This document shows positions 32,822-50,932 of a stretch of 64,000 bases of DNA, piece after piece. Every line of letters starts with the position of its first letter. Positions within the stretch are counted from its first letter, which is position 1. The notes under the pieces were generated by a model, which saw nothing but the letters and a program-made list of their open reading frames with translations, had not been told where the DNA came from and made no database searches. The position numbers were made by a program, and so were the translations under genes. Source of the stretch: Candidatus Adiutrix sp. (GTDB lineage Bacteria; Desulfobacterota; Desulfarculia; Adiutricales; Adiutricaceae); NCBI GenBank assembly GCA_031263565.1, contig JAISFR010000114.1, positions 1-64,000 on the forward strand. Direction: 5' to 3'.

Positions 32822-33838
32822 TTAAAGGCGCGATTCCCGCCGGCTGTGCTGCCGCAGTCTTTCCAGTCCTTCGGCCAGACTCACCGGCGCCTTAAAATCC
32901 AAATCCCTTTTCAGGCGGTCCAGGCGGAACCAGTGAGGCAGGCTCAGTTCTTCGGCCACAAAACCGGTCAAAGGCGGTTCGCCTTTAAGGCGCAGCAGGT
33001 ACCAGGCCCTTTCCAGGACCGAGCCGCCGGCCCGGCCCAGCCAGGCCGGCAGAAGGCCGGACGCTTTCAAGCTCTGACCGGGAGGGGAGACGGCCTGGAG
33101 TATCCTGGAAATCAGGTCGGGGGCGGTCAGCGGTTCCCCCTGGGCCACAAAATAGGCCCGGCCGCCTATCACGTCGCCCCGGCCCGCCCTGAAGAGCCCG
33201 GCGGCCGCCAGAAAAGCTTCGGCCGCGGTGTCGATGTAAGTGCCGTCCACCAGGGCCGTGGATTTCAGCAGCCATAAGCGCCCGGCCGCGGCTTTGGCTT
33301 TGAGGCGCGGCAAAAAATGGGGATCCCCCGGCCCCCAGATCAGGTGGGGGCGCAAGGCCGCGGTGCGGAAGCCCCCGGGCTGGTCGGCCGCCAGAATCAT
33401 CCGCTCGGCCAGCATCTTGGAATAGGCGTAAGGCCGCTCGGGCCGGGCCGCGTAAGGCGCGCTTTCATCCACCCCGTCCAGGGGCCGGCCGCTGTGGACC
33501 ACGCTGGGGGAACTGGCCCCCACCAGCCAGGCCGCGCCGCCCCGGCGGGCGGCTTCCAGAACATTGAAGCTGCCGACCAGATTGGCCTGAAGGTAATCGT
33601 CCAAGGGCCCCCAGACCCCGCTTTTGGCCGCGCAGTGGATGACCCCGTCCACCCCCCGGGCGGCGGCCCTGACGGCCGGCCCGTCCCGGAGGTCGGCTAA
33701 AAGCGTCTCCACCCCCCGGGCGGCGATCTCCGGGGCCGGCCGCCGGGTGACGGTCCGCACCGTCCAGCCGCGCTCCAAAAGAAAATCCAGGATCCGCCCG
33801 CCCAGGAAACCCTGGGCGCCGCTCAAAAGCACTTTCAT
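32822..33838 (-). CDS. OleD-like NAD(P)-dependent 2-alkyl-3-ketoalkanoate reductase / 3-beta-HSD family
   Basis: A 338-residue extended short-chain dehydrogenase. The Rossmann motif is GAQGFLGGRIL (residues 7-17), followed by GVIHCAAKSGVWG, the catalytic Ser region (GASSPSVVHSG) and the YAYSK motif. ALRPHLIWGPGDPHFLPRL and the C-terminal RLKGEPPLTGFVAEELSLPHWF closely match the pattern of OleD, which reduces the beta-ketoacid from OleA in long-chain olefin synthesis. No oleA, oleB or oleC is visible here. The start overlaps the SGNH-esterase stop (ATGA), so it belongs to the lipid cluster, probably reducing a keto group of its product. That role is inference. Confidence 0.82.
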   Translation of the reverse strand: MKVLLSGAQGFLGGRILDFLLERGWTVRTVTRRPAPEIAARGVETLLADLRDGPAVRAAARGVDGVIHCAAKSGVWGPLDDYLQANLVGSFNVLEAARRGGAAWLVGASSPSVVHSGRPLDGVDESAPYAARPERPYAYSKMLAERMILAADQPGGFRTAALRPHLIWGPGDPHFLPRLKAKAAAGRLWLLKSTALVDGTYIDTAAEAFLAAAGLFRAGRGDVIGGRAYFVAQGEPLTAPDLISRILQAVSPPGQSLKASGLLPAWLGRAGGSVLERAWYLLRLKGEPPLTGFVAEELSLPHWFRLDRLKRDLDFKAPVSLAEGLERLRQHSRRESRL

Positions 33839-35883
33839 TTTTTGCCCGACCTCAATTTTTCGCTCATAAATTCCAGATGCAGAGGCAGTTGAGACGACCA
33901 GAAGCGCCAGTCATGGCCGCCGGGGACCTCCCGGTAGAGGTGATCAATATTCAGGCCGACCAGAAGCCGGTGATAGGCCCGGTTTTCAGCCAAAGTCAGG
34001 CTGTCGGAAAGCCCGGCGCTGATGAGAAGCGGCTTCCCGGCCAGGACTTCGGGCCGGGCCCCGGTCAGGCGCCGGGCGTCGAAGGGCCGCCAGCGGCCGC
34101 CGCCCTCCCCGGCCGGCCCCAGAACCTTTTCAATTTTCAACTGCCGATTCAGTTTGTGGGAGTCGCCGGCGTGGGCGGCCAAATCGGTCACCGCGCTCAT
34201 GGCCCCCACGGCCTTGAACAGTTCCGGGTATTTCAGGGCCAAAGTCAGCGCCCCGTGCCCGCCCATGGAAAGTCCCGTAAGGCCCACCCGCTCCGGATCG
34301 GCCTCCGGCCGGGAACTCAGTATATGGGGCATCAATTCAGCGATCAGGTAGCTCTCAATGGCGCTTTCCAGGCCGTCAAGATACCAGCCGAACGGTTCGC
34401 CGTCAGGCATGACCAAAATCAGGCCGAAACGGTCGGCCAGTTCGGCCAGACGCCGGTCGCCCATCTGTTTGACCCAGGCGTCATGGCCGTCCCAGGCGCC
34501 GTGCAGCAAAAAAACCACCGGGTATGGGCCGGGGTATCCGGAACCGTCGCCCGGCAGAGCCAGATAATAGGCCGTCTCCTTATTGCGGAGCGGGGAGAAA
34601 AATTTCCGCTCGCTGATTCGGCCGCCGGCGGCCGGCAGATCGCTTTCATCCCGGCCGTCGCCGGCTGAAGGCGCCAAAGGCGGCTGTTCCCCGGGTTGGA
34701 CGGCCGGCGCCGGGCCCTCCTCTTCGCTTTTCTGGCGGTAATCGGCCCAGTCGGCCGTTTCGGCCAGAAATTGCTCGGCCATGATCCGGCCGCCGAACTC
34801 GGTCAGATGGATCTTGTCTTTACCCCGGACCCGGGCGCTCCTGCCCTGGGCGTCGGGCAGATAAGTGGAATAACACCCCTGGGCGTCGGCCACCGTCAGC
34901 CAGGAATCCCAAAAACGGCAATTGGGGGCCGCCTCGCAGCCGGCCCGGACCACTTGATTGATGACGGCCACCCGCGAGCCATAGGGCTCCAGCCCCATAA
35001 TCGGCAGGCCCACCCAGAAGACCCGGACTCCCCGGGCCTCGGCCCGGCCCAGAAGATCGGCGACCCGCTCGCCATAGATGCGCCGCCAGTCGTCGCCGCC
35101 CACCCCGACCCGCTTCTGGCCGGGACTGACCATATCCTGCGGATCATTGCCGCCGAGGGTCAGGATGACCAGATCGGGGCGGTATTTTTCCAGCATCTGG
35201 ACGAAATAAGCGAGCCAGTCGAAGTTGTCCAGACGGGTCAGCCCGGTGCCGTAGCGGCCGTCGCGGTTGACGCTCAGCCCTTCGTATTTCTTGAGTTCCC
35301 GCTGCAGTTGGGGTCCCAGCCCCTCCAGCATCATGGAGTCGCCCAGGAGGAGGACCCGGGCGGGGTTGAAGGAATCCGCCCCCGGGGTCCGGGCCCGGGC
35401 GGTCTCCCGGGGCAGAGCGGCCAGGAGTTTTTCGTCCGGCGCCGCGGAAGCGCCGGTCCCGGCGGCGGCGGTCGGCCCCGGGCCGTCGATCAATAGGGGC
35501 GCGGCTGGCCGGGGCTCGGGCGGCCGCCCTTCTCTGTCCGGAGGGGGAAGACCGGTGGCCATGGGGATCAGGGGGGGCGCGGCCGTCGGCGCCCCGGCCC
35601 GGGCGCCGATGGTCAGGTCGGCGGGAAATAGAGAGAGCAGACGGTCTTCATCGATTTTCAGGCGGCCCGGGCCCCAGGTCAGGACCTTTTCCCGGAGAGT
35701 CACGGCGGCGCTGAAGGCCAGTTCGGAAACCAGGCCCTCGCTGGACAGGGCCTGGTCGTCAAACCACTCGGCCAGCCGGCCGGCCTGATGCCAGCCCACC
35801 AGAAGGAAGGCCAGGCTGTAGACGAAAACCACCTTGGTGGGGTTCATGGTCCGGCGGCGGGCGCTCAGGCGCTCCCGGTTCAT
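33835..35883 (-). CDS. SGNH hydrolase (DUF459-like) fused to esterase D/antigen-85-like hydrolase
   Basis: A 682-residue two-domain enzyme. An N-terminal membrane helix (about 18-32) and a Pro/Ala-rich linker precede an SGNH domain (about 175-380): GDSMMLEG with Ser183, GGND with Asn246, and DKIH with Asp356 and His359. A second Pro-rich linker leads to an alpha/beta hydrolase domain (about 425-682): HGAWDGHDAW, nucleophile Ser539 in GLSMGG, probable Asp627 and His657 (PGGHDWRFW). Both active sites look complete. It probably faces the periplasm. It starts four bases after the PfaC-like stop and is ATGA-coupled to the OleD-like gene, so it may release or transfer the synthase product. The fusion is unusual in my experience. 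Confidence 0.8.
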   Translation of the reverse strand: MNRERLSARRRTMNPTKVVFVYSLAFLLVGWHQAGRLAEWFDDQALSSEGLVSELAFSAAVTLREKVLTWGPGRLKIDEDRLLSLFPADLTIGARAGAPTAAPPLIPMATGLPPPDREGRPPEPRPAAPLLIDGPGPTAAAGTGASAAPDEKLLAALPRETARARTPGADSFNPARVLLLGDSMMLEGLGPQLQRELKKYEGLSVNRDGRYGTGLTRLDNFDWLAYFVQMLEKYRPDLVILTLGGNDPQDMVSPGQKRVGVGGDDWRRIYGERVADLLGRAEARGVRVFWVGLPIMGLEPYGSRVAVINQVVRAGCEAAPNCRFWDSWLTVADAQGCYSTYLPDAQGRSARVRGKDKIHLTEFGGRIMAEQFLAETADWADYRQKSEEEGPAPAVQPGEQPPLAPSAGDGRDESDLPAAGGRISERKFFSPLRNKETAYYLALPGDGSGYPGPYPVVFLLHGAWDGHDAWVKQMGDRRLAELADRFGLILVMPDGEPFGWYLDGLESAIESYLIAELMPHILSSRPEADPERVGLTGLSMGGHGALTLALKYPELFKAVGAMSAVTDLAAHAGDSHKLNRQLKIEKVLGPAGEGGGRWRPFDARRLTGARPEVLAGKPLLISAGLSDSLTLAENRAYHRLLVGLNIDHLYREVPGGHDWRFWSSQLPLHLEFMSEKLRSGKK

Positions 35884-35886
35884 GGG

Positions 35887-38800
35887 TCAATCCTCGAGCA
35901 CGGCCAGAATTTTCCGGGCCAGGCCGAGGTTCAGGCCCCGCTTGCCCAGTTCGATAAGGCCGATCAGAGTGGCGGTCACCCCGACCTGGTCGGCCAGTTT
36001 CTTCTGACTCAGGCCCCTGGCCAGGCGCAGTTCCCGAAGCCGTTCCGGACTCAGCAGCCTGGAAGCGGCCTCCTTTTCCTCCCGCCGGCTTTTCAGGGTG
36101 CCCTTGGCCAGAATTTCCGAATGGCGCCCGGAGACCAGGCCGTCGTTCAATTCCCCGGCCAATATCAAATTGAGCTTTTCGGCCATCAGGGGGCTGATGT
36201 TGCGTTTGCCGCGCTCCATCAGGCTGATGTAGATGGAGGTCACCCCCATCAGCCTGGCCAGCTGGCCCTGGCTGAGGCCCTTTTCCCGGCGGAAGCCCAA
36301 AAGGCGATCGGGGGTGATGGCCGGCCCGCCGGCCCCGGCCCGGGCGGCCTTCAGCAGCCCGACCGTGAAGCCGCTTATTTTGTAGATGGGCAGACCATCG
36401 GCCATCAAGAGGCCGTCGGCAGTCAGGCTGCGCCCGGCCCGATTCTCCGAGCGGACCTGCAGGGCCAGGGACATTTCATGACGTTCCGGGGTGATCTGGC
36501 CGCGATAGAGCCATTCGTGACGGCCGCCACAGGCCGGGGCCGCCCAGGAATCCAGAGTTTCATCAGCGCCGAAACGCCGGCTGACCACCAGCTTCAGAGT
36601 CTGGATAAAGGCTTCCAGCCCCAGGGAGCCGGGCCAGACCGGATCTTGGTAAAAGTGGGCCTTGAAGAACCAGGCCTCGGGATCAACCGCGGCAACGGCA
36701 AAGGCCGCGCCCAGGGCTTCGGGGCCGCCCCGGGGGTCGACGCCGGCCCGCTCGATCATCCGCCAGCGGCCTTTGGGCCAGAGGGGACCTTCAGGGTAGG
36801 GTTCCATTTGGGCCGGGCGGGCCGGCCAGCCGTCAGGCTTCTCACCGGTCAGGCCGGCCTGGCGCGACAGGGCCAGGGGGCTGAAGAAGCCGAAATGGGT
36901 CAGACCTTCGTAAACCGGCCGCCCGCCGACCCGGCAAGTGAAGGAGAAATGCTGAATGACCATCTCGCCCGTCCGGCTGGAAGAGGTCAGTTTAGCGCTG
37001 GTCTCCACTTTCTGGCCGCCTTTGACCGGCGCCAGAACGGAGGCCCGACCGCCGAGGTTGCGGAAGTGCATGGGGCCTTGGAAAGGCAGGGCCGAGCCCA
37101 TATAGGCCGCCAGAAAGCCGCAGGGTTGAAGGGCTATCTCATTGAGAGCCGCATACGGCAGGGCCGGGTCGGCCCCGCCGGCCTCGCCGAAGAGCCAGGC
37201 GTCGGCGGGCGGGGTATAGACGGCCCGAACTTCAGAACCCACCAGCGCCTCATAGCGACGCCCGTTGACCACGACCGCCTGATCGACGAAATCATATGGC
37301 GGGCGGGGCAGACGGGCCACGAAGGCCCCGTCGTCAAAGCGGGCGTAGGCCCTCCCCAGAGCCTCGGAAGGACGGCCCTGGGCCAGGGCCAGCAAGCGCT
37401 CCTTGTTGAAGGTGTTTTCACTGTTCAGCGGCGTCGCTTCGGAGGCCGCCGGCCGGGACGGCCGCCCCGCCCAGACGGCTTTCAGTTTTTCCAGAGAGGA
37501 ACCGGCCAGGCGCAGATTGAGATTGCGAACCTCCACCACGGGTCGCTCGTCGGCCAGCATGACGGCCTCGGCCACGGCCACCGGCTCGGGCGGCTGGCCG
37601 GGTTCGAGGGCCTGGAAGCCCAGACGCCGAATATGCAGTTCATAGGCGGCCACCCGGGTGCGCGCGGTGACCTGGCCCCGGCATTTGAGGGCGGCGGGGA
37701 GACCTTTAACGGGCTGCCAGTCGTCCTGGCCGCTTTCCCCCACCCAGCCGGAAGCGGTCAAAAAGAGCCGCAGGGCATGGAGACAACTTTCATACATCAG
37801 GGTACCGGGCATGACCTCGTCGCCCACAAAGTGGCAGGTCAGAAACCAGGCCTGGGGATCGATGTCGATTTCGGCCCGGATAAAGCCGGCGCCATAGCGC
37901 CCCCCCCCTTTCTCCAGGCGGGTGACCCGGTCGATGAGGCTCATCCGTTCGCCGGGGAGAGACAGGGGATTCTTCAAAGCCGGCCGGAAGTCCGGCCCGA
38001 AAGCCCCGGCCAGATCACCCCGCCGAAAGGCCTGAAGCTGTTCCCGGCTCAGGGCGCCCGGCAGGACGGAGCGAAAAGCGACGGCCGCCGGATCCACCTC
38101 GGCCGGGGGAGCTTTATCCAAAAGGCCGCCGCCCGGCAGACCCCGCCCGCCGGCCAGTTCGGCCGGGGTGAAGAAGCCGGCGCAGCCGCCTTTCATGCTC
38201 AGGAGCGGCTGGCCGCCCGCCGTGCCCCGGAACTCGAAGCGGAAAAGGCGAGTCTGACCGTATTTGAAAAAGCGCAGAATGCGGATGTCGTAGCGGGCCG
38301 TTTCCCCGGCCCGGGGCAAAGCCCGATGAAAGGTGACTTCAGCATCCAAAAGCCGGTAAAAGGCCAGACCCCGGGTGGTGAAATCGGCTCCCAGCCAGGC
38401 CGAGAGCAGCAGGTCGGCCTGACCCGATTCAATGGCCAGCCCGGCCGGGATGTGCCCCTGATCCAGATACCAGGCCCCGGCCAGAATATCGTGTTCGGTG
38501 ACAATGCGGCCGGAAGTCATCGACAGGGGCCGCCCTTCCAGAGCCAGGACCCGGTCGACCAGCATCAGGGGTTCGTCCGGGAGCCGCACCCGGGAGGGGA
38601 AACGATCCGCCTCGCTGAAGCGGGGCCCCAGCACCCGGGCAATGCGGCCCACGGCAAATTCCAGGCAGTCGGCCCGGCTGAGGGGGGCCGGGCTGTCGGC
38701 CTTTTGAGCCGCCTCTTCCCTTAGCCTCAGTTCCCTATTTTCCGCCAGCCAGGAGTCGAAGGCGCCCCGGGCCTGGTCCACGGTCCGCCTGACCGGGTCG

Positions 38801-41800
38801 GCGGCCGCCGCCGGCGCCTCGACCGGCGGCTTTTCAGCGGCCGCCGGAACTTTGAAAATATCACGCTCTTCGGCGGCCTGGGCCAGAGCCTCTTCGGGCG
38901 ACGGCCACATTTCCGCGGTCGGGGCCAGGGTGACGGGCACCGGCAAGGCCAGGGAAGCCCCGGCGGCGTCCGGATAGAGAACCGACATTTTCAGGGGATA
39001 GCCGGCCATCCACAGTTCCACCAGCAAACGGTGCAGGCCCAGCCAGCCTTCATCATGGGCGCTGCCCGCCAGGCTGGAGGCCAGGTGGGGCTGCCCCTGG
39101 AGAATGTTGTTGATCATCCGGCTGCTGCCCGAGCCGGGCCCCACTTCCACGAAAAAGCGCACCCCGTCGGCATAGGCCTGCCGGATCAGACGGGTGAAAT
39201 CGTGGCCGCCAAGGGCCTGGTCGGTCAGGGAGCGGGCCGCGGTCCTGGAGTTGAGCTCATAGGCTTTAGCCCAGGCCGAGGAATAAAAACGCAGGCCGGG
39301 AGGGACCACCGTGGGCCGGGTGTGGAAGCGCTCATATTCGGCGATCACCGGCCTGACGCTGGGGTTGTGAACCGCGGCCACGCCTTCCAGAGAGCAGAGC
39401 ACCGCGGAAAGCGACTGGGCCAGGGCCCGCACCGCCCCCTCTTCGCCGCCCACCACCCCTTCGCCGGGGGTGTTGATCAGCAAGAGGAAAGCCCGGCCGC
39501 GATGGACCTCGGGCAGCCTGGCCAGGGCCTTGTTGATTTCCTCGGCCGAGCGGGGCAGAACGCCCATGACCCAGCGGAAAGGCCTGTCCTTGGGCCAGTT
39601 GAAATAGCGGCGGGCGGCCAGGTATTCGCCGGCCAGATCGTGGGTGAAGAGAGGCGATTTCATCAGGTCGTCATAAAGGCTTTCCCGGTCGCGCCAGGCC
39701 CCGGTGGCCACCAGGGCCGTGGTCTCGCCCAGGGAGTAGCCCAGAACCGCCTGGGGCACTACTTTGAACTGGTTGAGGACCCGGGCCCCCAAGAGGCCGA
39801 AGGAAACCTGGCCTAAAATGGCCTGAATGGGGCTGATGTCCTTCTGCCCCGGCCCCCAGAAGACCGGGCTCTGGAAATGGTCGGCCAGGCGGCTGACCCC
39901 GTCTTCCAATTGGCCCATCAAATGCGGAAAGCTCATGGCCAGGCGGCGGCCCAGGCCATGGTAATGACTGCCCGAACCGGGGAAGACCCAGGCCAGTTCG
40001 CCCCGCACCCGCTCGCCTTCCAGGGCCCAGATGATGCGCCCCTTCTGGTCGGGCGGCAGGGTCTGGGCCTCGCCGCGCAAACGGGCTCTGGCCTTTTTGA
40101 TCAAGCCCAGAAGGTCTTCAAAGCCCCGGGCCAGCATGGCCAGAATCGGCCGGGCCCCGGAAGCGTAACCGTATTCGGCCCAGAAGCGGTCCCCCAGGCG
40201 TTTCAAAGCCCGTTTTTCAGCCCGCACCGGCCCCAGCACCTCCACCAGATAGTGCTCGTTCTGGGCGGCCAGGGTCAAATTCTCCAGACGGTTCAGGAGG
40301 GCCAGGCTGTCCTCGCGGCTGCGGGCCCGCACCAGAAACCAGGTGGCGTCTTCATAGGAATAGGGCGGCGAAGAGACATCCTCCCCGCCTTTTTCGGTAA
40401 TGACGAAGCCGGGGGCTTCCAGGCTCCGGGGCGGGTCGCTCTTGTTTTTGATCCAATAGGCCGCGCCGGCGCCCAAACCTCTGGAAACCAGGCGGTGGCT
40501 GATGAAGAAAGCGTTCTTGACCAGGGTGAAGAGGCCGCCCAGGCCGCCCAGCCGGCCTTCAAGCTCCGGCAGTTCGGTCAGTTCCGGGGCCTGGCCCCGG
40601 CCGAGCGCGGCCGCGGCCTGGTCGGAGGCCAGAACCAGCATGGCCGCGCCCTCTTCCCACAAACGGCGGGGCGCCAGGGCGGCGGTTTTGGGGTCGCCCA
40701 TGCTGTCCACCACCCCGGCCAGGGCCAGATCGATCTCGCCGCGATTGATGGCGGCCATGGCCATTTTCAGGACCCTGAGCCCGGAAATGTTTTCTTCGGA
40801 AACCGTAAAGGCCGGGCCCCCGGAGCCGATGAAGCGGGCCACCCGGCTGGCCACCAGGCTGCCGAGGGCGCCCACCACCCGGCTGGCGGTCAGCCGGGGA
40901 TGACTGCGGCGACGCAGAACCTCGACAAATTCCGGCAGATCCCTGGCGCGCAGTTCGCCGGCGGCCACCAGGGCTTCGGCGGCCCGGAGCGGCCCCAGCC
41001 AGCGGAACGCGTAATCGGCCGAGCGGGGGTCGATGTCCACGCCCATGAAAATGCCCACCCGGGTCTTATCCACCCCCTGAGAACCGGCGGCCGCGCCCAG
41101 GCCGGTAATCACGGGCCGGCCGTGGGCCACATCCAGACGGGCGCTGGCCAGGGCCTCGTCGGCCATCTTCAGGGCCAGGGCCTGCTGGGGCAGAATATGG
41201 GCCAGATCCTTGGGCGCCATACGCAGAGAGGCCCCTTCCAGCACCAGGCTGTTAAAAAAGAGACCGGTGGCCTTCAGAGCCCCGAAACGGCGGGTGGCGA
41301 TGATGGGCGGTCCTTCCGAATCCATCCAGTTTTGAGCCAGAGAGGCGAAATCAGGCCAGGGCGCCGACAGGGCCCGGGCCGACAGAAGCCGCACCCGAGG
41401 CGGATCCCCGGGGCCGGAGCTGACGGCCCGGGGCCGGCCGCGGGCCGGCCTGACCCAGAGCTCGGGCCGGTATTCCTCGACAATGGCCTGGCCGTTAACC
41501 CCGCCGAAGCCAAAGGCGTTGACCGCGGCCAGACGCCCCCGCCAGTCGGGGGGAGCCGGCCAGGCTTCGGGGCGGGTCAGGACCCTTAAGGCCGGCTCGC
41601 CCGCCAGATTGAGCTCCGGGGCCTCTTGTTCAAAGCCGGCCGTGGGCGGCAGCACCGCCTTTTCCAGGGACAAAACCGCCTTGGCCAGGCCGGCCGCCGC
41701 GGCCGCCGACAGGAGGTGCCCGATATTGCTTTTGACCGAGCCGACGACCGGGGTGGTCTCGGCCGGGCCGCCGAAAGCGAATTCAGGATCGGCCAAAAGT

Positions 41801-42855
41801 TCCTTGAGGGTGGAAACCTCCACCAGGTCGCCCAGAATGGTGCCGGTGCCGTGGGCTTCGATGAGGCCGGCCGAACGAGGGCTGAGGCCGGCGTTCCGCC
41901 AGGCGGACTTCATGGCCCGCAACTGCCCTTCGGCCTGGGGGGCCAGGAGGTTCCCGGTCTGGTCGTTGGAGAGGCCCACGCCGCGAATGACGGCCCGGAT
42001 ATGGTCGCCGTGGGCCAGGGCCGTATCCAGGCGTTTGAGCACAAAGGCCACCGCGCCTTCCCCGACGATGAGCCCGTCGGCGCTCCGATCAAACGGCGTC
42101 AGACAGCCGGAGGCGGCCAGGGCCCTGAGCTGGCAAAAGCCCAGTTGGGTGAACAGGGCGTCGGCCTTGGCCACGCCGCCGCTGAAGACGGCTTCCAGGG
42201 AGCCGTTCAAAAGATCTTCGACGGCCAGGTGAACGGCGTAGAGCGACGAGGCGCAGGCCGCGTCCAGAGTATAGGCCGGGCCGCTGAAACCCAGGGACTG
42301 GGCCAGAAGCCGGGCCGAATAGCCCATCAGGCGGAAAGCGTCCCTGGGCGGCGGCTCCAGTTGGGGCTTGGTCGCCCAGTCGCGCGTGGCTTCCCGGGTG
42401 TAGAGGCTGACGGCCGCCTCGGCCATGGCCGTGGAAGGGAGGATGACATGCCCGGAAATGACCCCTACCTTGCCGGGATCGACCTTGTCCCATTTGACTT
42501 CCCGGGCCGCGTCGCGCCCGGCGGCCAGCCAGAAGGCCAGGGAGCCGTCGGCGCTTTTGGGGTCAAAACCTTCCGGCAGCTTCAGGCCTTCGGGATCAAT
42601 GGTCCGCCGATTATTGAAGGCGCCGTTCAGGCTGTAGGCCCGGTCCAGGGCCGGGCCGCCCTCCTGGTAAAAATGCTCCGGCTCGGCGCCCCAGTCCAGG
42701 GCCGTGGCCGGCTGGAAAAAGCGCCGCCTTTCCAGGATATTGTTCCAGAATTCGTCCACAGTCCCCGCGCCGGGCAGGCTCAGGCCCAAGCCGACCACGG
42801 CCGCCACTTCATGGGGCTGAGGCCTCTTTTTATCCGATTTATTCCGCGTAGTCAT
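35887..42855 (-). CDS. pfaC: PfaC-like polyunsaturated lipid synthase (KS-CLF-AT-DH-DH) with C-terminal tandem XRE HTH domains
   Basis: A 2322-residue megaenzyme in one uninterrupted frame. The KS (about 15-465) has Cys201 in DAACASS, His335 in EAHGTGT and His380. The CLF (about 540-760) aligns Asn689 with the KS cysteine, so it is not catalytic. The AT (about 950-1290) has Ser1041 in GYSLGE. Four hotdog units form two FabA-like DH domains: about 1395-1790 (His1675/Glu1689) and 1815-2170 (His2067/Glu2081), each pair 14 residues apart as in FabA. Residues 2181-2234 and 2269-2322 are two helix-turn-helix domains of XRE type (GLSQGQLARLMGVTSIYISL and GLSQKKLADQVGVTATLIGL). Myxobacterial Pfa3 has the same KS-CLF-AT-DH-DH order but ends in a lysophospholipid-type acyltransferase. 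It follows pfaA by about 20 bases. Confidence 0.92.
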   Translation of the reverse strand: MTTRNKSDKKRPQPHEVAAVVGLGLSLPGAGTVDEFWNNILERRRFFQPATALDWGAEPEHFYQEGGPALDRAYSLNGAFNNRRTIDPEGLKLPEGFDPKSADGSLAFWLAAGRDAAREVKWDKVDPGKVGVISGHVILPSTAMAEAAVSLYTREATRDWATKPQLEPPPRDAFRLMGYSARLLAQSLGFSGPAYTLDAACASSLYAVHLAVEDLLNGSLEAVFSGGVAKADALFTQLGFCQLRALAASGCLTPFDRSADGLIVGEGAVAFVLKRLDTALAHGDHIRAVIRGVGLSNDQTGNLLAPQAEGQLRAMKSAWRNAGLSPRSAGLIEAHGTGTILGDLVEVSTLKELLADPEFAFGGPAETTPVVGSVKSNIGHLLSAAAAAGLAKAVLSLEKAVLPPTAGFEQEAPELNLAGEPALRVLTRPEAWPAPPDWRGRLAAVNAFGFGGVNGQAIVEEYRPELWVRPARGRPRAVSSGPGDPPRVRLLSARALSAPWPDFASLAQNWMDSEGPPIIATRRFGALKATGLFFNSLVLEGASLRMAPKDLAHILPQQALALKMADEALASARLDVAHGRPVITGLGAAAGSQGVDKTRVGIFMGVDIDPRSADYAFRWLGPLRAAEALVAAGELRARDLPEFVEVLRRRSHPRLTASRVVGALGSLVASRVARFIGSGGPAFTVSEENISGLRVLKMAMAAINRGEIDLALAGVVDSMGDPKTAALAPRRLWEEGAAMLVLASDQAAAALGRGQAPELTELPELEGRLGGLGGLFTLVKNAFFISHRLVSRGLGAGAAYWIKNKSDPPRSLEAPGFVITEKGGEDVSSPPYSYEDATWFLVRARSREDSLALLNRLENLTLAAQNEHYLVEVLGPVRAEKRALKRLGDRFWAEYGYASGARPILAMLARGFEDLLGLIKKARARLRGEAQTLPPDQKGRIIWALEGERVRGELAWVFPGSGSHYHGLGRRLAMSFPHLMGQLEDGVSRLADHFQSPVFWGPGQKDISPIQAILGQVSFGLLGARVLNQFKVVPQAVLGYSLGETTALVATGAWRDRESLYDDLMKSPLFTHDLAGEYLAARRYFNWPKDRPFRWVMGVLPRSAEEINKALARLPEVHRGRAFLLLINTPGEGVVGGEEGAVRALAQSLSAVLCSLEGVAAVHNPSVRPVIAEYERFHTRPTVVPPGLRFYSSAWAKAYELNSRTAARSLTDQALGGHDFTRLIRQAYADGVRFFVEVGPGSGSSRMINNILQGQPHLASSLAGSAHDEGWLGLHRLLVELWMAGYPLKMSVLYPDAAGASLALPVPVTLAPTAEMWPSPEEALAQAAEERDIFKVPAAAEKPPVEAPAAAADPVRRTVDQARGAFDSWLAENRELRLREEAAQKADSPAPLSRADCLEFAVGRIARVLGPRFSEADRFPSRVRLPDEPLMLVDRVLALEGRPLSMTSGRIVTEHDILAGAWYLDQGHIPAGLAIESGQADLLLSAWLGADFTTRGLAFYRLLDAEVTFHRALPRAGETARYDIRILRFFKYGQTRLFRFEFRGTAGGQPLLSMKGGCAGFFTPAELAGGRGLPGGGLLDKAPPAEVDPAAVAFRSVLPGALSREQLQAFRRGDLAGAFGPDFRPALKNPLSLPGERMSLIDRVTRLEKGGGRYGAGFIRAEIDIDPQAWFLTCHFVGDEVMPGTLMYESCLHALRLFLTASGWVGESGQDDWQPVKGLPAALKCRGQVTARTRVAAYELHIRRLGFQALEPGQPPEPVAVAEAVMLADERPVVEVRNLNLRLAGSSLEKLKAVWAGRPSRPAASEATPLNSENTFNKERLLALAQGRPSEALGRAYARFDDGAFVARLPRPPYDFVDQAVVVNGRRYEALVGSEVRAVYTPPADAWLFGEAGGADPALPYAALNEIALQPCGFLAAYMGSALPFQGPMHFRNLGGRASVLAPVKGGQKVETSAKLTSSSRTGEMVIQHFSFTCRVGGRPVYEGLTHFGFFSPLALSRQAGLTGEKPDGWPARPAQMEPYPEGPLWPKGRWRMIERAGVDPRGGPEALGAAFAVAAVDPEAWFFKAHFYQDPVWPGSLGLEAFIQTLKLVVSRRFGADETLDSWAAPACGGRHEWLYRGQITPERHEMSLALQVRSENRAGRSLTADGLLMADGLPIYKISGFTVGLLKAARAGAGGPAITPDRLLGFRREKGLSQGQLARLMGVTSIYISLMERGKRNISPLMAEKLNLILAGELNDGLVSGRHSEILAKGTLKSRREEKEAASRLLSPERLRELRLARGLSQKKLADQVGVTATLIGLIELGKRGLNLGLARKILAVLED
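35890..36315 (-). other. C-terminal tandem XRE-type HTH module of the PfaC-like synthase
   Basis: This segment encodes two Cro/cI-like helix-turn-helix domains joined by a charged linker of about 34 residues, in the same frame as the dehydratase domains. The first reads LLGFRREKGLSQGQLARLMG, and the second reads LRELRLARGLSQKKLADQVG. The stop codon ends the second domain immediately. There is no internal stop, frameshift or start site that would clearly make it a separate gene. Confidence 0.88.
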
Positions 42856-42876: not shown

Positions 42877-45800
42877 TTATAGTGAAGCTAAATCCGTGGC
42901 CGGTCCCAGAACCACCACTTCCACCGGATCGTTCTTGGGCGCCCCGGTCAGGGCGGCGAAAAAACGGGCGCCTTCAGCCAGGGGGATCAGTCCCACGCCT
43001 TCGGATTCGAAGAGCCGCTTAAGACCGCCGTCGACCATGCCGCCTGCCCAGGGCCCCCAATTGACCGACAGGCATTTGGACCCCTGGCGAAGGCCGGCGC
43101 AGGCCCGGGCCAGTTTGTTGAGCACCTCGTTGCCGGCCGCGTAGTCGGCCTGCCCCCGACGCCCGAAGCGGGCCGTGCTGGAGGAGAAAAAGGCGATCAG
43201 GCTGAGAGGCTGGCCGGCCAGTTCATCGAGAATCAAAGCGGCCATTTGAGCCTTGGTGTTGAAGACCAGATCGAAATCCGCGTCCTTTTTGTCCAGCAAA
43301 AGACTGTCGGCCAGAACCCCGGCGCCGTGAATGAAGCCGCAAATGGGGCCGTGACGGTCTTTGACGTCGCTCAGGGCGGTCCTGAGGCGGTCGAGGTTTT
43401 CGAAATTGCCGGATAAATAGGTCACCTTGGCCCCGACTTTTTCCATGGCCGCGATATTGGCCCGGATTTCCCGGCCGGCCAGCAGAAGACGGCTGTCTCT
43501 GGCCAGTTCCAGGGGGCCGGGCTTGACCTCGGCCCGGTCGAAGAGAGCCTGGCGAACGGCGGCCTCGTCCTTAAGCGCGGCCAGCCAGGCCGGCTCGGCA
43601 GGCGCCAGGGGGGTCCGCCCTAAAATGACCAGATTGGGCCGATAAGCCCGGGCCACTTCCTTTAAGGCGGCGGCGGTCACCCCCCGGGCGCCGCCGGTGA
43701 CCAGCACGGTCTGCCCTTCCCGCAGATGCCGCACCCGGATATTCTTTAATTTATAGGGCGACAAAGCCGGGGCCCCCAGTTCCCGGGGACCGCCCAGACC
43801 TATTTCCACCGGGGCGCCTTCAGCGGCGCAGGCGGCCGCCAGGCCCGGCCGATAGAGCTCAAAGACCGGCCCGTAGGCCTCAGGCGGCAGATCCAAAGCC
43901 AGGACCCTGACCTGGGGCCATTCGCGGGCCGCGCTCTTTAAAAGCCCGGTCAGGGCGGCCGAAGCCGGGGCCAGGCCGGCCTCGGAGCCCGCCAAGGCAA
44001 AGTCGCCGCCCATAAAAGTGAGACCCAGAAGCAGGGCCCGTTCCCCTTGCCCGGCCGCCTTGAGCAGGGCCGGGCCGGCGCCGCGCACCGCCCGGAAGGC
44101 CCTGGCCGGCAGATCCAGATCATTGAGCTGGCCCGGCCAGACCAGAATCAGGCCCCGGAGCGTTTCGGGCTCATCGAATTCCTCAAAATCAGACCAGCCC
44201 AGACGGACCGGGCGCTGCCCTCCATCCCGCAGCAGGTTCTCCAACCCCTGGCCCACGGGCCCGGGCTCGGCCACGATCAGCACCCGGTCGCCCGAATCAA
44301 GGCCCAGGCCATCGGGCGCGGTTTCCGGCCAGGGCCAGGGTTTCATCTGAACCTTAAAGGCCGAAACCGAACTGGTCCGGGTGACGACCGGAGCTTCCTC
44401 CTCGGCAGCCTTGAAGGCCGGCGGGCTGTTTTTCGGCGGCCGGCCCGGACCCCGCCGCCGGGGTCTGATCGAGGCGGCCGGGACGGAGGCGACCTCCTGG
44501 GCGACCGGGCCGGAGCCGACGGCCGGCGAATCAGTCGGCTTCGGCCGACCGGCCCTGGATTTCAGCAGAATATCCCGCAGATCGCCCAGAGTCACGGCCC
44601 CGCTCAATATCTCGGCCGCCGGGGCGCTCAGGCTGTCGTCGCCCAGTTTTTCGCTCAGGGCGGCCATGATCTCCACCCGTTTGATGGAATCCAGGCCCAG
44701 GTCAGCCTCCAGAGCGGATTCAAAGCGCAGCATCTCCTGCGGATAACCGGTTTCCGCGGCCACCACTTCCAGCAGAAGATCGCCCGGCGGCTGAACGGTC
44801 ACGAGAGCCCGTTCAGGAGCGGCCGGAGCCCGGTCGGCCGCCTGATTCACGAAGGCCGCCAGATCGCCGATGGTCGCCAGGCCGGCCAGGGCTTCGCCGG
44901 CGCCCAGGGCCGGAAGCCCCTCAAGCCGCTCGCTCAGGGCCGCCATTATTTCCACTTTTTTAATGGAATCCAGACCCAGGTCGGCCGCCAGATTCATCGA
45001 CGGCCGCAGCATGTCGCGAGGGTAGCCGGTCTCCCGGGAAAGTACTTCCATGACCATTTCAGAGGCCGAAAAATCGGCCGACGGTCTCCGCGGCGGCTGT
45101 TCCGGCCAGGCGGCCGGAGGCCGGTCCGCCGGGGCGGAAGCCAGTTCCAGGGCGGCGGCCAAATCGGCCAGGGTCCGGGCGCCGCTTAAAACTTCAGCCG
45201 AAACCTGACCGGCCCCCGGCAGCCGCTCGCTCAGGGAACCGGCTATTTCCACCAGCTTGATGGAATCCAGGCCCAGATCGTCGCCCAGGCGCATCCGGGG
45301 ATCAAGCATTTCCGGGGGATAGCCGGTCTCCCCGGCCACCACTTCCCGCAGAAGCGGCCAGAGCCCGGGCCCGGCCGCCGACGCCTCGGTCGCCTCCGGG
45401 CCCGGCGAAGGCCGGCCGGACCGGGCCAGGGCTATCAGATCCTTGAGGGTGCGGGCCCCGCTCAGGCTTTCAGCCTCCAGGCCCGGCCCGGCCGCGAGCT
45501 TTTCGCTCAACACGGCCATGATCTCCACCTTCTTGATGGAATCCAGGCCCAGGTCGCTTTCCAGATCCATGTCGGCCTTCAACATTTCCACGGGATAGCC
45601 GGTCTCTCCGGCCACCACGCCCAGGACCAGATTTTCCGTCTCGGCGGCCGCGGAATCGGCCGGCGCCGCCGGAGGGGCGGCGGGCGCCGGAGCCGGGGGA
45701 GCGCCCTGCAATTTCACAGGCGCCTCCGAAGTTGTCCGCCTATCCAGCTCACGGCTCATCAGGCTCAGGACGTCGGATTGCTGCCTGAGGAATTCCTGGT

Positions 45801-48237
45801 GCAGGCGAGCGGTTTCCGTGCTCAGACTGTCCAGCAGATCCAGAGCCGAGCGGCCGGCCGGGGCCTCCGGGGGGGTCGCTTTGGCTTTGGAAGGCGGCAG
45901 CGACTTTTTGACGAAGTAGTTGGCCCCGCTGATCATGACCGTAAAAGTGCCGGCCGGATCGGCCTGGGCGCCCAGAACATTTTCCGGCCAGGCCTGAAAA
46001 TCCACCGGCAGGCCCCAGGCGGCCAGGCGGGCCAGCAGACAGGCCAGATCCAGAGAACCGCCCTGGTCGCCATCCAGGGCCAGGGCCTGACGGCCGGCCC
46101 CGGAGGCGGCCTGGGCCAATTTCCGGCCCGGGCCCAGTTCCAGCCAGAGATCGATATTTTTATTGGCGGCCTTCGCCAGTTCCTGGGCCAAAGAGGCCGG
46201 GGACTCCAGGCCGCTGATGACGGCCGAAGCCGTCAGGCCGAATTTCCCCAAAAGCCCGGTCAAACCCCGCTGCAGGGCCGAAACCGCGATCTTCCGCAGC
46301 CGGCCGTCGCCCAGGTCAGCGCTCCAGGCGGCCTGCTTTTCCGGGGAAGCCAAATCCGGCGGATAAAGGGCCAGGTCCAGCGGGGCCAGTTCCGGGGCGG
46401 CGGCCGCCAGTTCGGCGGCGGCCTGGCTCAGGGCCGCGATCAGCTCCGGGCGTTCGGCCACCAGGGCCCGATATTGATCCGGCTTCAGTTCGGCGGGGGC
46501 GGACATCAGAAAACCCAGGGCCGAGGCCCTGGCCGGACCGGAGCTGAAAAACGCGCCTTCCGGGAAATCCGCTTCCTTTACTTCCGGGCGATCCAGAATC
46601 CGGACGCTTTCGCTGATCAGCGAGGGCAGATGCTCGACCGGCGAGACCAGGACCAGACGGCAGCCGGCGGCCGGTTCAAAGTTCTCCCGGGCCCGACGGG
46701 CGGCCGAAGACGGCTCATCAGCCAAAAATTCATTCAGGCGGCCGACCAGGCCGGCCGGACTGTCGGCGCCGACGGGCAGCAGCTCCAGCCCGAAAGGCCC
46801 CTCGGCCACCGCCTTTTCAGGCCCGGCTTCCTCCAGCACGCAGTGAAAATTGCTGCCCCCGAAGCCAAAGGCGCTGACCCCGGCCCGGCGGGGGCCGGCC
46901 GAAAGCCAGGGCCGGGGGCGGGTGGAAAGATGAAAGGGGGAAGCCGGCGCGGTCAGAATCGGCAGCGGCGCCCGAACTTTGGCCGCCGGCGGCAACGTCT
47001 TGAAATACAGGGCCAGGGCGGCCTTGAGCAGCCCGGCCGCGCCGGCGGCGGCCTTGGTGTGGCCGATCTGGGACTTGACCGAACCCAGGGCGCACCAGGG
47101 CCGGCCGATTTCCGCCCGGGGGCTCTGGCTGAAAACCTGGCTCAGGGCCTCGACTTCCACGGCATCGCCCACGGCCGTGCCGGTTCCGTGACCTTCCACC
47201 ATTTCCACGGTCTCGGCCCCGAAACCGGCCTGCTCATAGGCGTCTTTCAAAGCCCGAACCTGCCCTTCGGCACTCGGGGCAAAAACGGCCGCGCCCTTGC
47301 CGTCGCTGGAGGAACCCACGCCGCGAATAACGGCGTAAACCCGGTCTCCGTCGCGCCGCGCGTCATTCAGCCTTTTCAGGACCAGCATCCCCAGGCCCTC
47401 ACCCAGCATGGTGCCGTCGCCGTCGCGGTCGTAAGCCCGAACCTCGCCGGAAGGGGCCAGGGCCGGGGTTTTGGAAAAACAAGTGTACATGAAGGGATCG
47501 CTGAAGGTGTCCAGCCCGCCGCTGAGCACCAGATCGGCCCGGCCGGAATTCAGTTCCATCAGGCCCTGGCGGACGGCGGCCAGAGAGCTGGCGCAGGCGG
47601 CGTCCACCACCAGGTTGGCGCCGCCCAGGTTCAGGCGGTTGGCGATGCGGCCGGCGGTGACGTTGCCCAAAAGGCCCGGAAAGGAATTCTCTTTCCAGGG
47701 GGCGAATTCAGAGGCGAAACGGGCCAGCACCTCTTCGGCCACCGACCCGGCCACCCCGCTGTCGGCCAGAGCCCGGCGCAGTTGGGGATGAGCCAGCCGG
47801 GAGCCCAGGCTGACCACTATCTTCATGGCCCCGGTCACCCCCAGCATGACCGCCGTGCGGCGATGATCCCAACCGTTGTCGGCGCTGTAGCCGGCATCTT
47901 TCAAGGCCAGGTCGGCGGCCACCAGCCCCAGGAGCTGGGTGCTGTCAATGGCCGACAAATCATTGGGCACAATGCCGTATTTGAGGGGCTCAAAGGCGAC
48001 GGGCTCCAGAAAGCCGCCCCGGCGGCCATAGGTCTTATCCTCGGCCTTGGGATCGGGGTCGTAATATTCAGACGGCGACCAGTGGTCCTCCGGAATATCG
48101 CCGACGGCTTCCCGGCCGCTTTTTAACAGAGCCCAGTAGGCGGCCAGGTCGGGGGAGCCGGGGAAGAGACAGCTGAGGCCGATAATGGCCACCGGTTCGG
48201 CCGTTATTTCCCGGGGACTGGAATTATCCTGAGTCAT
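42877..48237 (-). CDS. pfaA: PfaA-like polyunsaturated lipid synthase (KS, eroded AT, four ACPs, KR)
   Basis: A 1786-residue megaenzyme. The KS (about 12-470) has Cys215 in DAACASS, His350 in EGHGTGT and NFHC near 464. The following 280 residues occupy the acyltransferase position but lack a GHSxG nucleophile; only the late AT-like LWLELGPG survives. Four ACPs each carry LGLDSIK with phosphopantetheine serines near 900, 992, 1091 and 1184. The ketoreductase (about 1509-1760) has TGGARGVT and the Ser-Tyr pair in SSSTARFG...DYAAGN. There is no dehydratase domain; those are in the PfaC-like partner. A basic RPRRRGPGRPPKN linker (about 1258-1270) precedes the KR. It works with PfaC, PfaD and a phosphopantetheinyl transferase to build a long unsaturated acyl chain. 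The product is not predictable. Confidence 0.93.
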   Translation of the reverse strand: MTQDNSSPREITAEPVAIIGLSCLFPGSPDLAAYWALLKSGREAVGDIPEDHWSPSEYYDPDPKAEDKTYGRRGGFLEPVAFEPLKYGIVPNDLSAIDSTQLLGLVAADLALKDAGYSADNGWDHRRTAVMLGVTGAMKIVVSLGSRLAHPQLRRALADSGVAGSVAEEVLARFASEFAPWKENSFPGLLGNVTAGRIANRLNLGGANLVVDAACASSLAAVRQGLMELNSGRADLVLSGGLDTFSDPFMYTCFSKTPALAPSGEVRAYDRDGDGTMLGEGLGMLVLKRLNDARRDGDRVYAVIRGVGSSSDGKGAAVFAPSAEGQVRALKDAYEQAGFGAETVEMVEGHGTGTAVGDAVEVEALSQVFSQSPRAEIGRPWCALGSVKSQIGHTKAAAGAAGLLKAALALYFKTLPPAAKVRAPLPILTAPASPFHLSTRPRPWLSAGPRRAGVSAFGFGGSNFHCVLEEAGPEKAVAEGPFGLELLPVGADSPAGLVGRLNEFLADEPSSAARRARENFEPAAGCRLVLVSPVEHLPSLISESVRILDRPEVKEADFPEGAFFSSGPARASALGFLMSAPAELKPDQYRALVAERPELIAALSQAAAELAAAAPELAPLDLALYPPDLASPEKQAAWSADLGDGRLRKIAVSALQRGLTGLLGKFGLTASAVISGLESPASLAQELAKAANKNIDLWLELGPGRKLAQAASGAGRQALALDGDQGGSLDLACLLARLAAWGLPVDFQAWPENVLGAQADPAGTFTVMISGANYFVKKSLPPSKAKATPPEAPAGRSALDLLDSLSTETARLHQEFLRQQSDVLSLMSRELDRRTTSEAPVKLQGAPPAPAPAAPPAAPADSAAAETENLVLGVVAGETGYPVEMLKADMDLESDLGLDSIKKVEIMAVLSEKLAAGPGLEAESLSGARTLKDLIALARSGRPSPGPEATEASAAGPGLWPLLREVVAGETGYPPEMLDPRMRLGDDLGLDSIKLVEIAGSLSERLPGAGQVSAEVLSGARTLADLAAALELASAPADRPPAAWPEQPPRRPSADFSASEMVMEVLSRETGYPRDMLRPSMNLAADLGLDSIKKVEIMAALSERLEGLPALGAGEALAGLATIGDLAAFVNQAADRAPAAPERALVTVQPPGDLLLEVVAAETGYPQEMLRFESALEADLGLDSIKRVEIMAALSEKLGDDSLSAPAAEILSGAVTLGDLRDILLKSRAGRPKPTDSPAVGSGPVAQEVASVPAASIRPRRRGPGRPPKNSPPAFKAAEEEAPVVTRTSSVSAFKVQMKPWPWPETAPDGLGLDSGDRVLIVAEPGPVGQGLENLLRDGGQRPVRLGWSDFEEFDEPETLRGLILVWPGQLNDLDLPARAFRAVRGAGPALLKAAGQGERALLLGLTFMGGDFALAGSEAGLAPASAALTGLLKSAAREWPQVRVLALDLPPEAYGPVFELYRPGLAAACAAEGAPVEIGLGGPRELGAPALSPYKLKNIRVRHLREGQTVLVTGGARGVTAAALKEVARAYRPNLVILGRTPLAPAEPAWLAALKDEAAVRQALFDRAEVKPGPLELARDSRLLLAGREIRANIAAMEKVGAKVTYLSGNFENLDRLRTALSDVKDRHGPICGFIHGAGVLADSLLLDKKDADFDLVFNTKAQMAALILDELAGQPLSLIAFFSSSTARFGRRGQADYAAGNEVLNKLARACAGLRQGSKCLSVNWGPWAGGMVDGGLKRLFESEGVGLIPLAEGARFFAALTGAPKNDPVEVVVLGPATDLASL

Positions 48238-48378: not shown

Positions 48379-49917
48379 TCAATTCAAATAGGTCTTTATT
48401 TCAGATATGGGCCGGGGCTTTAAGGCCGGCGCCGCCCCGAAAGGCAGAACCCCCAGGGCCACGGCCAGGTTCCGGCGGGCCAGCACGGCCGCCCCGTAAA
48501 GCAGGTTGAGGGCCAGATCCATCACCCGCCGATTTTCGGGAGCTTCAAAGACGCTGCCTTTGGCCCATTCATTGAAAGCCCCCTGGGCCGGGCCGCAGAA
48601 AATCTGCCAGTCGGGGCGCCGGTCTTCCACCCCGCCGATGGCCCAGCGGGAAGCCTGCCCCAGGTACCAGCGAAAAACCAGGGCCATTTTGTATTTCGGG
48701 TCGCCTTCGGCCCTGAGCACCTGGGCCGGGTCACGTTCCCCGAAGAAGGCGCGGGTCTGGGCCCAGATGTCGGCCAGGGGCTGCTTGAATATCTGGGTCT
48801 CGAACATTTCGCGGTCAGCGGCCGGGATATCGTCCAGGGAGGCGCACTGATGATAGGCTTCGGCCAGCTTCTGGGCCCTCATGGCGTAAAGGGTTCCGAA
48901 TTTCAAGACCTGAACCTTGGCGCCCAGTTCAAACATATCCGCCGCCGGCCCCTGGACCATGTCGGCCTGGCCGGCCCTGGCCAGGAGTTCCCGGCCGGCC
49001 GGGGCCAGACCCGACTCCAGGCAGGACTGATTGATGGAAGCGGTGACCACGTAAGAGGCCCCCACCGAGGCGGCGGCCAAAAGGGCCGCGGGCGTGCCGA
49101 TGCCGCCGGCCGCGCCCACCCTCAGGGGGACGGCGTAGTTGTATTTTTCGGTCATCTCCCGGGCGGCGGCGGCCATGGCCGGCCACAAGGGCAGCGAGGG
49201 GCGAAAATCGGTATGGCCGCCGCTGTCGGCCTCGGCGGTCAGGTCGCCGGCCATGGGGACAAAGGGGGCCAGGGCGGCCTCGGCCTCGTTCAGCCAGCCG
49301 CGCTTAAGACATTCCTTGACCAGCTTGTCAGGCGGCGGGGCGAAAAAGCGGCGGGCCAGTTCCAGCCGGGAAACCTTGGCCAGAATCCGGTTGGGCGTAA
49401 AAATGGAGCCGTCAGGCCGCCGGGCCGCGCCGCTCAAGCGGTAGCGCACCAGGGAAGGGGTCAGTTGCATGAAAGCCGAGGCTTCGATAACCCGCACCTG
49501 GCGCTTCAGGTATATTTCCGCGGCCTTCTCCTCCCAGGACGGGTCCTGAGGGGTGTGGATCAGGCAGGCGCCGAAGGCCCGGCCGGCCAGTTCCCCGCTC
49601 AGGGCGGCCACCTCTTCGTCCACCCGGGCCGGGGTCAGACCGGAAGCGCCCAGAAAGCCCAGGGCGCCGCCCTCGGCCAGGGCCTTGACCATGGCCCGGG
49701 AACTGATGGCCCCGACCATGGAGCCGCCCACATAGGCGTATTTCAGGCCATATTCAGCCTTGAAGGCGGGGCTCCCGAAAGAGGAGGGGGGCAGCGCGGG
49801 GATGATCCCCCGCAGGTGGTCGTCCTCAGGCCCGCCCAGACTGCCGTCGGCCCTGATATATACCCTTTGTCCGGGATCTTCTAGAAGCCGCAGCAGTTTT
49901 TGCTGATCTTGCATCAT
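48379..49917 (-). CDS. pfaD: PfaD-like FMN enoyl reductase of the lipid synthase
   Basis: A 512-residue protein of typical PfaD length and sequence. It has an N-terminal lid (RLLEDPGQRVYIRADG), a TIM-barrel 2-nitropropane-dioxygenase-like core with KYAYVGGSMVGAISSRAMVKALAEGGALGFLGASG, the FMN loop RVGAAGGIGTPAALLAAASVGASYVVTASINQS, and a C-terminal domain ending with FCGPAQGAFNEWAKG. In Pfa systems this separate reductase saturates selected double bonds, deciding the final unsaturation pattern. It lies between the phosphopantetheinyl transferase (20 bases) and pfaA (141 bases) on the same strand. Confidence 0.94.
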   Translation of the reverse strand: MMQDQQKLLRLLEDPGQRVYIRADGSLGGPEDDHLRGIIPALPPSSFGSPAFKAEYGLKYAYVGGSMVGAISSRAMVKALAEGGALGFLGASGLTPARVDEEVAALSGELAGRAFGACLIHTPQDPSWEEKAAEIYLKRQVRVIEASAFMQLTPSLVRYRLSGAARRPDGSIFTPNRILAKVSRLELARRFFAPPPDKLVKECLKRGWLNEAEAALAPFVPMAGDLTAEADSGGHTDFRPSLPLWPAMAAAAREMTEKYNYAVPLRVGAAGGIGTPAALLAAASVGASYVVTASINQSCLESGLAPAGRELLARAGQADMVQGPAADMFELGAKVQVLKFGTLYAMRAQKLAEAYHQCASLDDIPAADREMFETQIFKQPLADIWAQTRAFFGERDPAQVLRAEGDPKYKMALVFRWYLGQASRWAIGGVEDRRPDWQIFCGPAQGAFNEWAKGSVFEAPENRRVMDLALNLLYGAAVLARRNLAVALGVLPFGAAPALKPRPISEIKTYLN

Positions 49918-49937: not shown

Positions 49938-50627
49938 TTATTCAGGGCCCGGCTCTTGCTGGAAAGAGCCGGCCAGGGCCAGGAGATGTTCCGCCCGGTT
50001 AAAAAGCGCCACCCGGCTTTGCCGGCGGGGTTCCGCCAACCAGTCCACCCACAGGAGCCCAGAGCGCCAGTCGGCCCGGGTGACGCGGACTTTATCCAGA
50101 TGCTTCAAAAGCGCCCGCCCCCATGATTTGGCGGCGGCTTCGCGGCCGCACCACAAAGCCAGGGCCGGGGAAAAGCGGCTGCCCGCGCCTTGGTCGATCA
50201 GAGTCAACTCCCGCCCATTAAAAGCCCAGCGGCGGACCCGCTCGCCCAAGGCCCGATCCCGACGTTCCAGATCCACCCCCAACGGCCGGCCGGAGACCGC
50301 CGCCAGGGCCGCGCCGGGACAGTGACTGATGGAAAGGCAGCCTGAAAAATCCGGGCGGCCCGGCCAAACCAGGAGCGGCTCGCCTTCCGGCCCGTTGAAT
50401 ATTTCCGGATCGCCGCCGGCCGGCTTCCAGAACTCGACCGCCGCGGCCTTGGCCGCCCAGCGCCCCAGGAGCCAGGCCCGGTAAGCGGCGGATGATCTTT
50501 TTTCGCGGCCGCGAGCCGTCTCCTTCGGACCGAGCCGGCTTTCATAAACCCCGACGGGCAGGGCCGGGTCATCCAGAAGCAGGGTCAGGGTCAGGTCCGA
50601 ATTGTTAATAAAATGCCGTATATTCAA
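49938..50627 (-). CDS. Sfp-type 4'-phosphopantetheinyl transferase
   Basis: A 229-residue protein starting at a TTG (50627); no in-frame ATG lies near and the first residues are LNIRHFINNSDLTLTLLL. The family motifs are SISHCPGAALAAVSG, GVDLE with the two magnesium ligands (near residue 118), and LWCGREAAAKSWGRAL, equivalent to WxxKEA with Arg replacing Lys. It installs the phosphopantetheine arm on the four ACPs of PfaA, matching the role of PfaE. It is the first gene of the lipid-synthase operon. Confidence 0.88.
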   Translation of the reverse strand: MNIRHFINNSDLTLTLLLDDPALPVGVYESRLGPKETARGREKRSSAAYRAWLLGRWAAKAAAVEFWKPAGGDPEIFNGPEGEPLLVWPGRPDFSGCLSISHCPGAALAAVSGRPLGVDLERRDRALGERVRRWAFNGRELTLIDQGAGSRFSPALALWCGREAAAKSWGRALLKHLDKVRVTRADWRSGLLWVDWLAEPRRQSRVALFNRAEHLLALAGSFQQEPGPE

Positions 50628-50932
50628 GGCAACTAAGCCTTTTGACTGTGCTTTTTCAGAAACAGGCCAGAGGCCGCTCCTTTAATCCATCCAATTTATA
50701 CTATAGACGCCGATGAATCAACCATTATTCGACTAAAATCTAAATAAATAGTCACATACTTTTTTATGTTGTTGCTTCGCCTGACTCCGCCGCTGTTTAT
50801 GGCTGTTTTTCATCATATTCCATTTTGACCCCGGCCGTAAAATATGCGATGATGTTCCTCCCCCGACCTTCCCGGACCTCCTGATCTTTGAGATCTGCGG
50901 AGGCGGGAGGAATATTCGCCGGAGGTTGGCCG
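50628..50932. other. intergenic divergent region, lipid-synthase operon / rimO
   Basis: About 305 bases without a gene and clearly AT-richer than its surroundings. It carries a minus-strand promoter-like pair for the lipid cluster. For rimO only a weak TTGACC near 50825 is visible. As the promoter of a gene that encodes its own fused HTH domains it is the first place to look for autoregulatory operators, but I see no strong palindrome. Confidence 0.55.
50695..50721 (-). promoter_or_regulatory. candidate promoter of the lipid-synthase operon
   Basis: On the minus strand TTGATT (50716-50721) and TATAAA (50695-50700) are 15 bases apart, shorter than ideal. The start would lie about 60 bases before the TTG start of the phosphopantetheinyl transferase. 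Confidence 0.35.

Follow-up and report, generated by a model that had tools for sequence, protein, structure and literature searches.

How can a subunit of a lipid megasynthase end in two DNA-binding domains, and what might such domains do there? The question was raised by a gene of Candidatus Adiutrix, a genus of termite-gut bacteria, lying within the stretch of 64,000 nucleotides analysed here (the window). Its initial annotation had described a PfaC-like protein running without interruption through four hotdog units into two XRE-type helix-turn-helix (HTH) domains. Translation confirmed this: positions 35887..42855 of the minus strand formed a single open frame of 2322 codons that continued uninterrupted into two XRE/Cro-type HTH domains, and the Pfam HTH_3 profile matched the protein over two stretches (E=5.9e-17, 61.9 bits, cut-off 23).

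The synthase, its tail and its operon

According to the Pfam and NCBIfam profiles and the motifs, the 2322-aa protein was a PfaBC-type synthase subunit with the order KS-CLF-AT-four hotdog units-two HTHs. Namely, the KS occupied residues 19-466, the CLF was a second KS-like region at ~480-900, the AT lay at ~950-1258 (with a PfaB-family match at 950-1253), and four FabA-like hotdog/DH units extended over ~1395-2165. The catalytic motifs found by motif search were intact (DAACASSL in the KS, GYSLGE in the AT and HFxxDxVxPG in two of the hotdog units), and the enzyme is apparently active.

Between DH4 and HTH1 lay a linker (36319..36360, minus strand, residues ~2166-2179), which was variable in the alignment and of low confidence in the AlphaFold2 model. 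It was followed on the same strand by HTH1 (36160..36318, residues ~2180-2232, helix 2-3 being SQGQLARLMGVTSIYISLMERGKRNIS) and HTH2 (35890..36057, residues ~2267-2322), both assigned to XRE/HTH_3 by profiles and AlphaFold2 and 42% identical to each other over 53 aa. At the DNA level HTH_3 matched 35896-36039 with 40.5 bits and 36172-36291 with 38.6 bits, both above the curated cut-off of 23; the 2.97-Mb genome had 22 such matches, including the two of the synthase. In NCBIfam and PHROGs the tail matched HipB-like antitoxin and phage-repressor families. A structure prediction, which had been proposed for this tail, gave two XRE-type helix bundles (AlphaFold2, pLDDT ~80-92) with low-confidence linkers between. 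The nearest Foldseek structures were C.Kpn2I, HigA2, HipB and SinR (prob 1.00, E 7e-3 and weaker); these matches were for single domains, the E-value of the whole tail not falling below 1e-3. The closest sequence and fold matches of each HTH were XRE controller and antitoxin proteins (C.AhdI, C.BclI, HigA, HipB, SinR), many of which control their own operon. In contrast to these small, stand-alone proteins, the Adiutrix HTHs were arranged in tandem on an enzyme.

The gene was the fourth in an operon with the order PPTase, PfaD, PfaA, PfaC-HTH, DUF459/esterase and SDR, all on the minus strand, and about 20 bp separated PfaA from PfaC. The first gene encoded a 4'-phosphopantetheinyl transferase (49938..50627), whose position was conserved in Adiutrix, and the second a PfaD-type enoyl reductase (48379..49917; TIGR02814, 538 bits, cut-off 449). 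The PfaA-type subunit (42877..48237) had, by profiles and motifs, a KS, four ACPs and a KR but no recognisable AT motif; its TIGR02813 score of 983 fell below the cut-off, 1010, so that it was not a strict PfaA equivalent. Downstream, a DUF459 (GDSL) and esterase protein (33835..35883) started 3 bp past the synthase stop and was followed by a 3-beta-HSD-like short-chain dehydrogenase (32822..33838), the order being kept in four Adiutrix genomes. Among the loci examined, the DUF459 gene adjoined PfaC in Adiutrix only. Thus, the gene set of a Pfa-like secondary lipid synthase was complete: PfaA (KS...ACPn-KR), PfaC (KS-CLF...DH), the PfaD ER and the PPTase.

Several other features of the locus and genome were observed. 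The stretch of PfaA between the KS and the first ACP was ~680 aa long versus ~900 in a Geobacter homologue. The only clear AT was in PfaC, and a pattern search found no GxSxG-type AT motif in PfaA; loss of the AT from PfaA is tentative because the Geobacter PfaA, too, was missed by this pattern. The DUF459/GDSL-esterase and PPTase genes flanked pfa in Adiutrix; in the loci of the sister genera neither gene was found next to pfa. Both may have been recruited along with the tail. In strain Smac51 the pfaA-pfaC spacer was ~366 bp and carried long GC-rich inverted repeats (L040 9620-10020), versus ~20 bp in the window. A 764-aa protein encoded at 4989-7283 (minus strand) was one of three copies in the genome, the other two being 37-41% identical. 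Finally, the Omp85-like gene of Smac51 (G003:C1:3496345-3498269; L202, L203) gave two separate matches, one of them interrupted by a stop, unlike that gene in the other six Adiutrix genomes.

Distribution and conservation of the tail

All five Candidatus Adiutrix species with a complete gene (G000, G001, G002, G003 and G005) had the tail, and one of them, Smac51 (G003), was represented by a closed chromosome (CP026657). The junction between DH4 and the tail lay in one open frame in each of these five separately assembled genomes. The remaining two were uninformative on the tail, since the contig of G004 ended inside PfaC and G006 had no hotdog or tail match. Outside the genus the tail was absent from every homologue whose end was resolved. 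In each of 14 genomes from sister genera within the family, the protein ended 1-6 residues past the last hotdog. About 70 more distant homologues (from Geobacter, Desulfuromonas, Thiotrichaceae, Planctomycetes, Elusimicrobia and others) ended within ~18 residues of it, apart from one that read on through low-complexity sequence, likewise lacking an HTH, and a few whose ends were not resolved. Similarly, in 395 genomes sampled evenly across the phylum the homologues ended at the hotdog, Adiutrix excepted. Weak matches of the tail elsewhere were generic XRE proteins. A separate tandem-HTH gene near pfa was considered as a source of the tail and rejected, as a tblastn search of the relatives' loci with the tail matched Adiutrix only.

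The initial annotation had compared the tail with the acyltransferase (AGPAT) domain that ends the myxobacterial enzyme. This comparison was taken from a more distant relative and did not hold for the lineage. A Pfam search of the protein gave no acyltransferase match after DH4, and the myxobacterial Pfa3 architecture was not found. Since the nearest homologues, from the sister genera and from Geobacter/Desulfuromonas-type clusters, ended after the last hotdog, the tail replaced nothing, and its role as an AGPAT substitute was ruled out.

The two HTHs were better conserved than the catalytic domain next to them. Pairwise identity among four genomes (G000, G001, G003 and G005) was 66-82% in HTH1 and HTH2, 53-65% in the adjacent DH4 and 7-43% in linker A. 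The ratio of differences at codon positions 1+2 to those at position 3 was 0.41 for HTH1, 0.39 for HTH2, 0.51 for DH4 and 0.86 for the linker in the five genomes. Moreover, about half of all HTH residues were invariant, and 70% in helix 2-3 of HTH1. By these identities, ratios and invariant positions, both HTHs are constrained at the protein level and the tether is not. The fusion was thus kept in related genomes, a check that had been proposed initially, and is under purifying selection. Because the tail was limited to Adiutrix, its HTHs were conserved above the hotdog level, its linkers were not and the catalytic motifs were intact, we conclude from the sequence comparison that selection has kept it as an addition, peculiar to the genus, to an enzyme that is apparently active.

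A conserved element upstream of the operon

If the tail binds DNA, the operon's own upstream region would be a candidate target, as had been suggested initially. The region did hold a conserved footprint unique to the fusion-bearing genus, which gave the suggestion that the tail might act there independent circumstantial support. The footprint spanned ~75 bp upstream of the first gene (50677..50752, minus strand) and had the form CTATTTATTTAG-N18-TTGATTCA-N12-GTATA... In the window the element read CTATTTATTTAGATTTTAGTCGAATAATGGTTGATTCATCGGCGTCTATAGTATAAATTG (about 50692-50751, minus strand), and the flanking DNA was unrelated among the Adiutrix genomes. It included a probable sigma70-type promoter (TTGATT, 17 bp, TAAATT; 50693..50721, minus strand) and, by comparison of the Adiutrix genomes, a candidate operator, the CTATTTATTTAG box (50740..50751, minus strand). 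The box preceded the -35, its first base being 29-30 bp away from it in six genomes and 25 bp in the seventh; judging from this spacing, the box would be centred near -60 of the presumed promoter. Such a position would suit an activator or a distal operator, and repression would also be possible. Against the box as the site of the tail, its symmetry was only weak (palindromic at 6-8 of 12 positions), whereas the usual targets of XRE proteins are palindromes, bound by dimers.

The element was present in all seven Adiutrix genomes, with one strong site in each and no other strong site. The sequence-only model was built from six of them, and in the held-out genome (G002) it matched directly upstream of the PPTase gene at E=3.3e-8. 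In contrast, 18 sister-genus genomes, whose synthase lacked the tail, gave no strong match, the best being E=0.03 on another contig. Mean identity of the best 24-mer was 0.79 upstream of the operon versus 0.60 and 0.63 at the two genes that served as the only controls, and ~0.58 in shuffles. In G002, CTATTTATTTAG was identical to that of the window, whereas the -35 and -10 were altered (TTGATTCA to TTGCTTCA, GTATA to GTTTA). Since the box was identical despite the changed presumed promoter hexamers, it is probably constrained for its own sake. Copies of the element were also considered as a wider regulon and rejected: a match in G005 (contig C114) lay inside a coding frame, and the other sub-threshold matches were weak.

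The tail as a possible regulator of its own operon

Two hallmarks of a trigger enzyme, namely enzymatic domains with intact catalytic residues and a recognisable DNA-binding domain on the same chain, were seen in the synthase sequence. For a third, the binding of DNA at genes that are regulated, the operon-specific promoter element is circumstantial evidence; a fourth would be regulation that depends on substrate, product or catalytic state. The tail and the promoter element were, moreover, both genus-specific, both conserved and associated with one operon, and on these grounds we favour a synthase resembling a trigger enzyme, the promoter of its operon being read by its own tail, although we put the probability somewhat short of even. 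According to this reading, PfaC of the ancestor of the genus, a catalytically competent subunit of a polyunsaturated-fatty-acid-type synthase, would have gained a tandem XRE-type DNA-binding tail. Held on flexible linkers, the tail would bind the conserved element at the promoter of the ppt-pfaD-pfaA-pfaC-DUF459-SDR operon, and through this binding transcription of the operon would be tied to how much synthase is present or to its working state. Three points are inferred here: DNA binding by the tail, the element as the place where it binds, and occupancy that varies with the state of the synthase. The initial suggestion that the synthase could sense its product or acyl state is hypothetical. 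A more specific form, in which the synthase serves as the transcription factor of its own operon and DNA binding is switched by its acyl loading, its assembly state or its engagement with the membrane, is doubtful. Since the tail and the element share the same genus boundary, their co-occurrence counts as one evolutionary event and may be a coincidence; the case is circumstantial because both may simply mark the same ancestor.

The tail might instead bind DNA elsewhere, regulating other genes or tethering the synthase to the nucleoid, and the element would then belong to another factor or be a constrained promoter. The conserved HTH helices would fit this, the footprint was single-copy, and the -35/-10-like hexamers alone account for part of its conservation; the promoter within the element looks ordinary, and the element may be that of a different regulator. 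However, the CTATTTATTTAG box lay outside the core promoter and was unchanged in G002 despite the altered hexamers, and no second strong copy of the element defined a wider regulon, so we consider such other targets unlikely. It is likewise improbable that the HTH pair has lost DNA binding and become a docking or dimerisation module, for instance onto PfaA, PfaD or RNA polymerase. XRE folds are sometimes re-employed for protein contacts, the tail is carried by a multi-subunit synthase, and the recognition helix of HTH2 (TATLIGLIELGKR) deviated from the usual pattern. On the other hand, HTH1 kept a textbook XRE helix 2-turn-helix 3 with an almost invariant recognition helix, and the family matches were to DNA-binding repressors.

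That the tail exists as a small regulator on its own, made from an internal start or set free when a protease cuts the linker, appears very unlikely. Cleavage would be possible because the linker was variable and predicted to be disordered. However, one open frame passed through the junction in all five genomes, and an internal start, which had been raised initially, found no support in them: in-frame ATG, GTG and TTG codons near the junction were either not conserved in position or lacked a well-placed Shine-Dalgarno sequence. The window came from an assembly of 145 contigs, but both an artefact of assembly or frameshift and a run-on fusion in decay are refuted: five species, each assembled separately and one of them as a closed chromosome, had the identical in-frame junction, which excluded the suspected stop or frameshift, and the codon-position differences showed purifying selection on both HTHs.

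The reading of the tail as a regulator at the promoter of its own operon has parallels. PutA, BirA and NadR regulate the genes of their own pathways. Together with PepA, they are established trigger enzymes, in which an enzyme with a DNA-binding domain regulates genes, and similar to them the Adiutrix protein joined a DNA-binding domain to a metabolic enzyme within a single chain (PMC8249747). However, PutA, BirA and NadR catalyse one or two steps and have demonstrated DNA targets, whereas the Adiutrix protein is a multi-domain acyl megasynthase with a tandem XRE pair and putative DNA binding.

Among lipid synthases, Shulse and Allen sorted the Pfa-like clusters into types, with a fused pfaBC in the Type I clusters of Geobacter and Desulfuromonas (PMC3098273). 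These fused proteins were among the nearest relatives outside the family (~38-42% identity), and the Adiutrix locus shared the PfaD, PfaA and PfaC genes with this type; homologues of the Type I kind, by contrast, ended after the last hotdog without an HTH, and the text of that paper does not mention helix, DNA-binding or regulator. Myxobacterial Pfa3 (KS-CLF-AT-DH-DH(-DH4)-AGPAT; PMC6731297) had the same KS-CLF-AT-DH order but a C-terminal AGPAT in contrast to the two HTHs of the Adiutrix lineage. The marine pfa gene regulator PfaR, modelled on MuA transposase (PMC4744452), also exemplifies a pfa cluster under dedicated control, as proposed for Adiutrix; unlike the tail, it is a separate protein without an XRE HTH.

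In the open-access literature we found no PUFA synthase or PKS described as carrying a fused HTH. PKS and FAS megasynthases are usually controlled by separate regulators, and we know of no earlier case of direct transcriptional feedback from a megasynthase of this type; if true, the Adiutrix case would be the first as far as we know. The Adiutrix PfaC-HTH is thus best read as an extension of the trigger-enzyme idea to an uncommon class of enzyme and as the first lipid megasynthase example found. It offers a concrete, testable enzyme-regulator fusion within a single genus, with the sister genera as natural controls, and the conserved element reduces testing to one protein fragment and one DNA of ~75 bp. 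A synthase that carries a conserved DNA-binding module of its own would amount to a feedback device made of a single protein.
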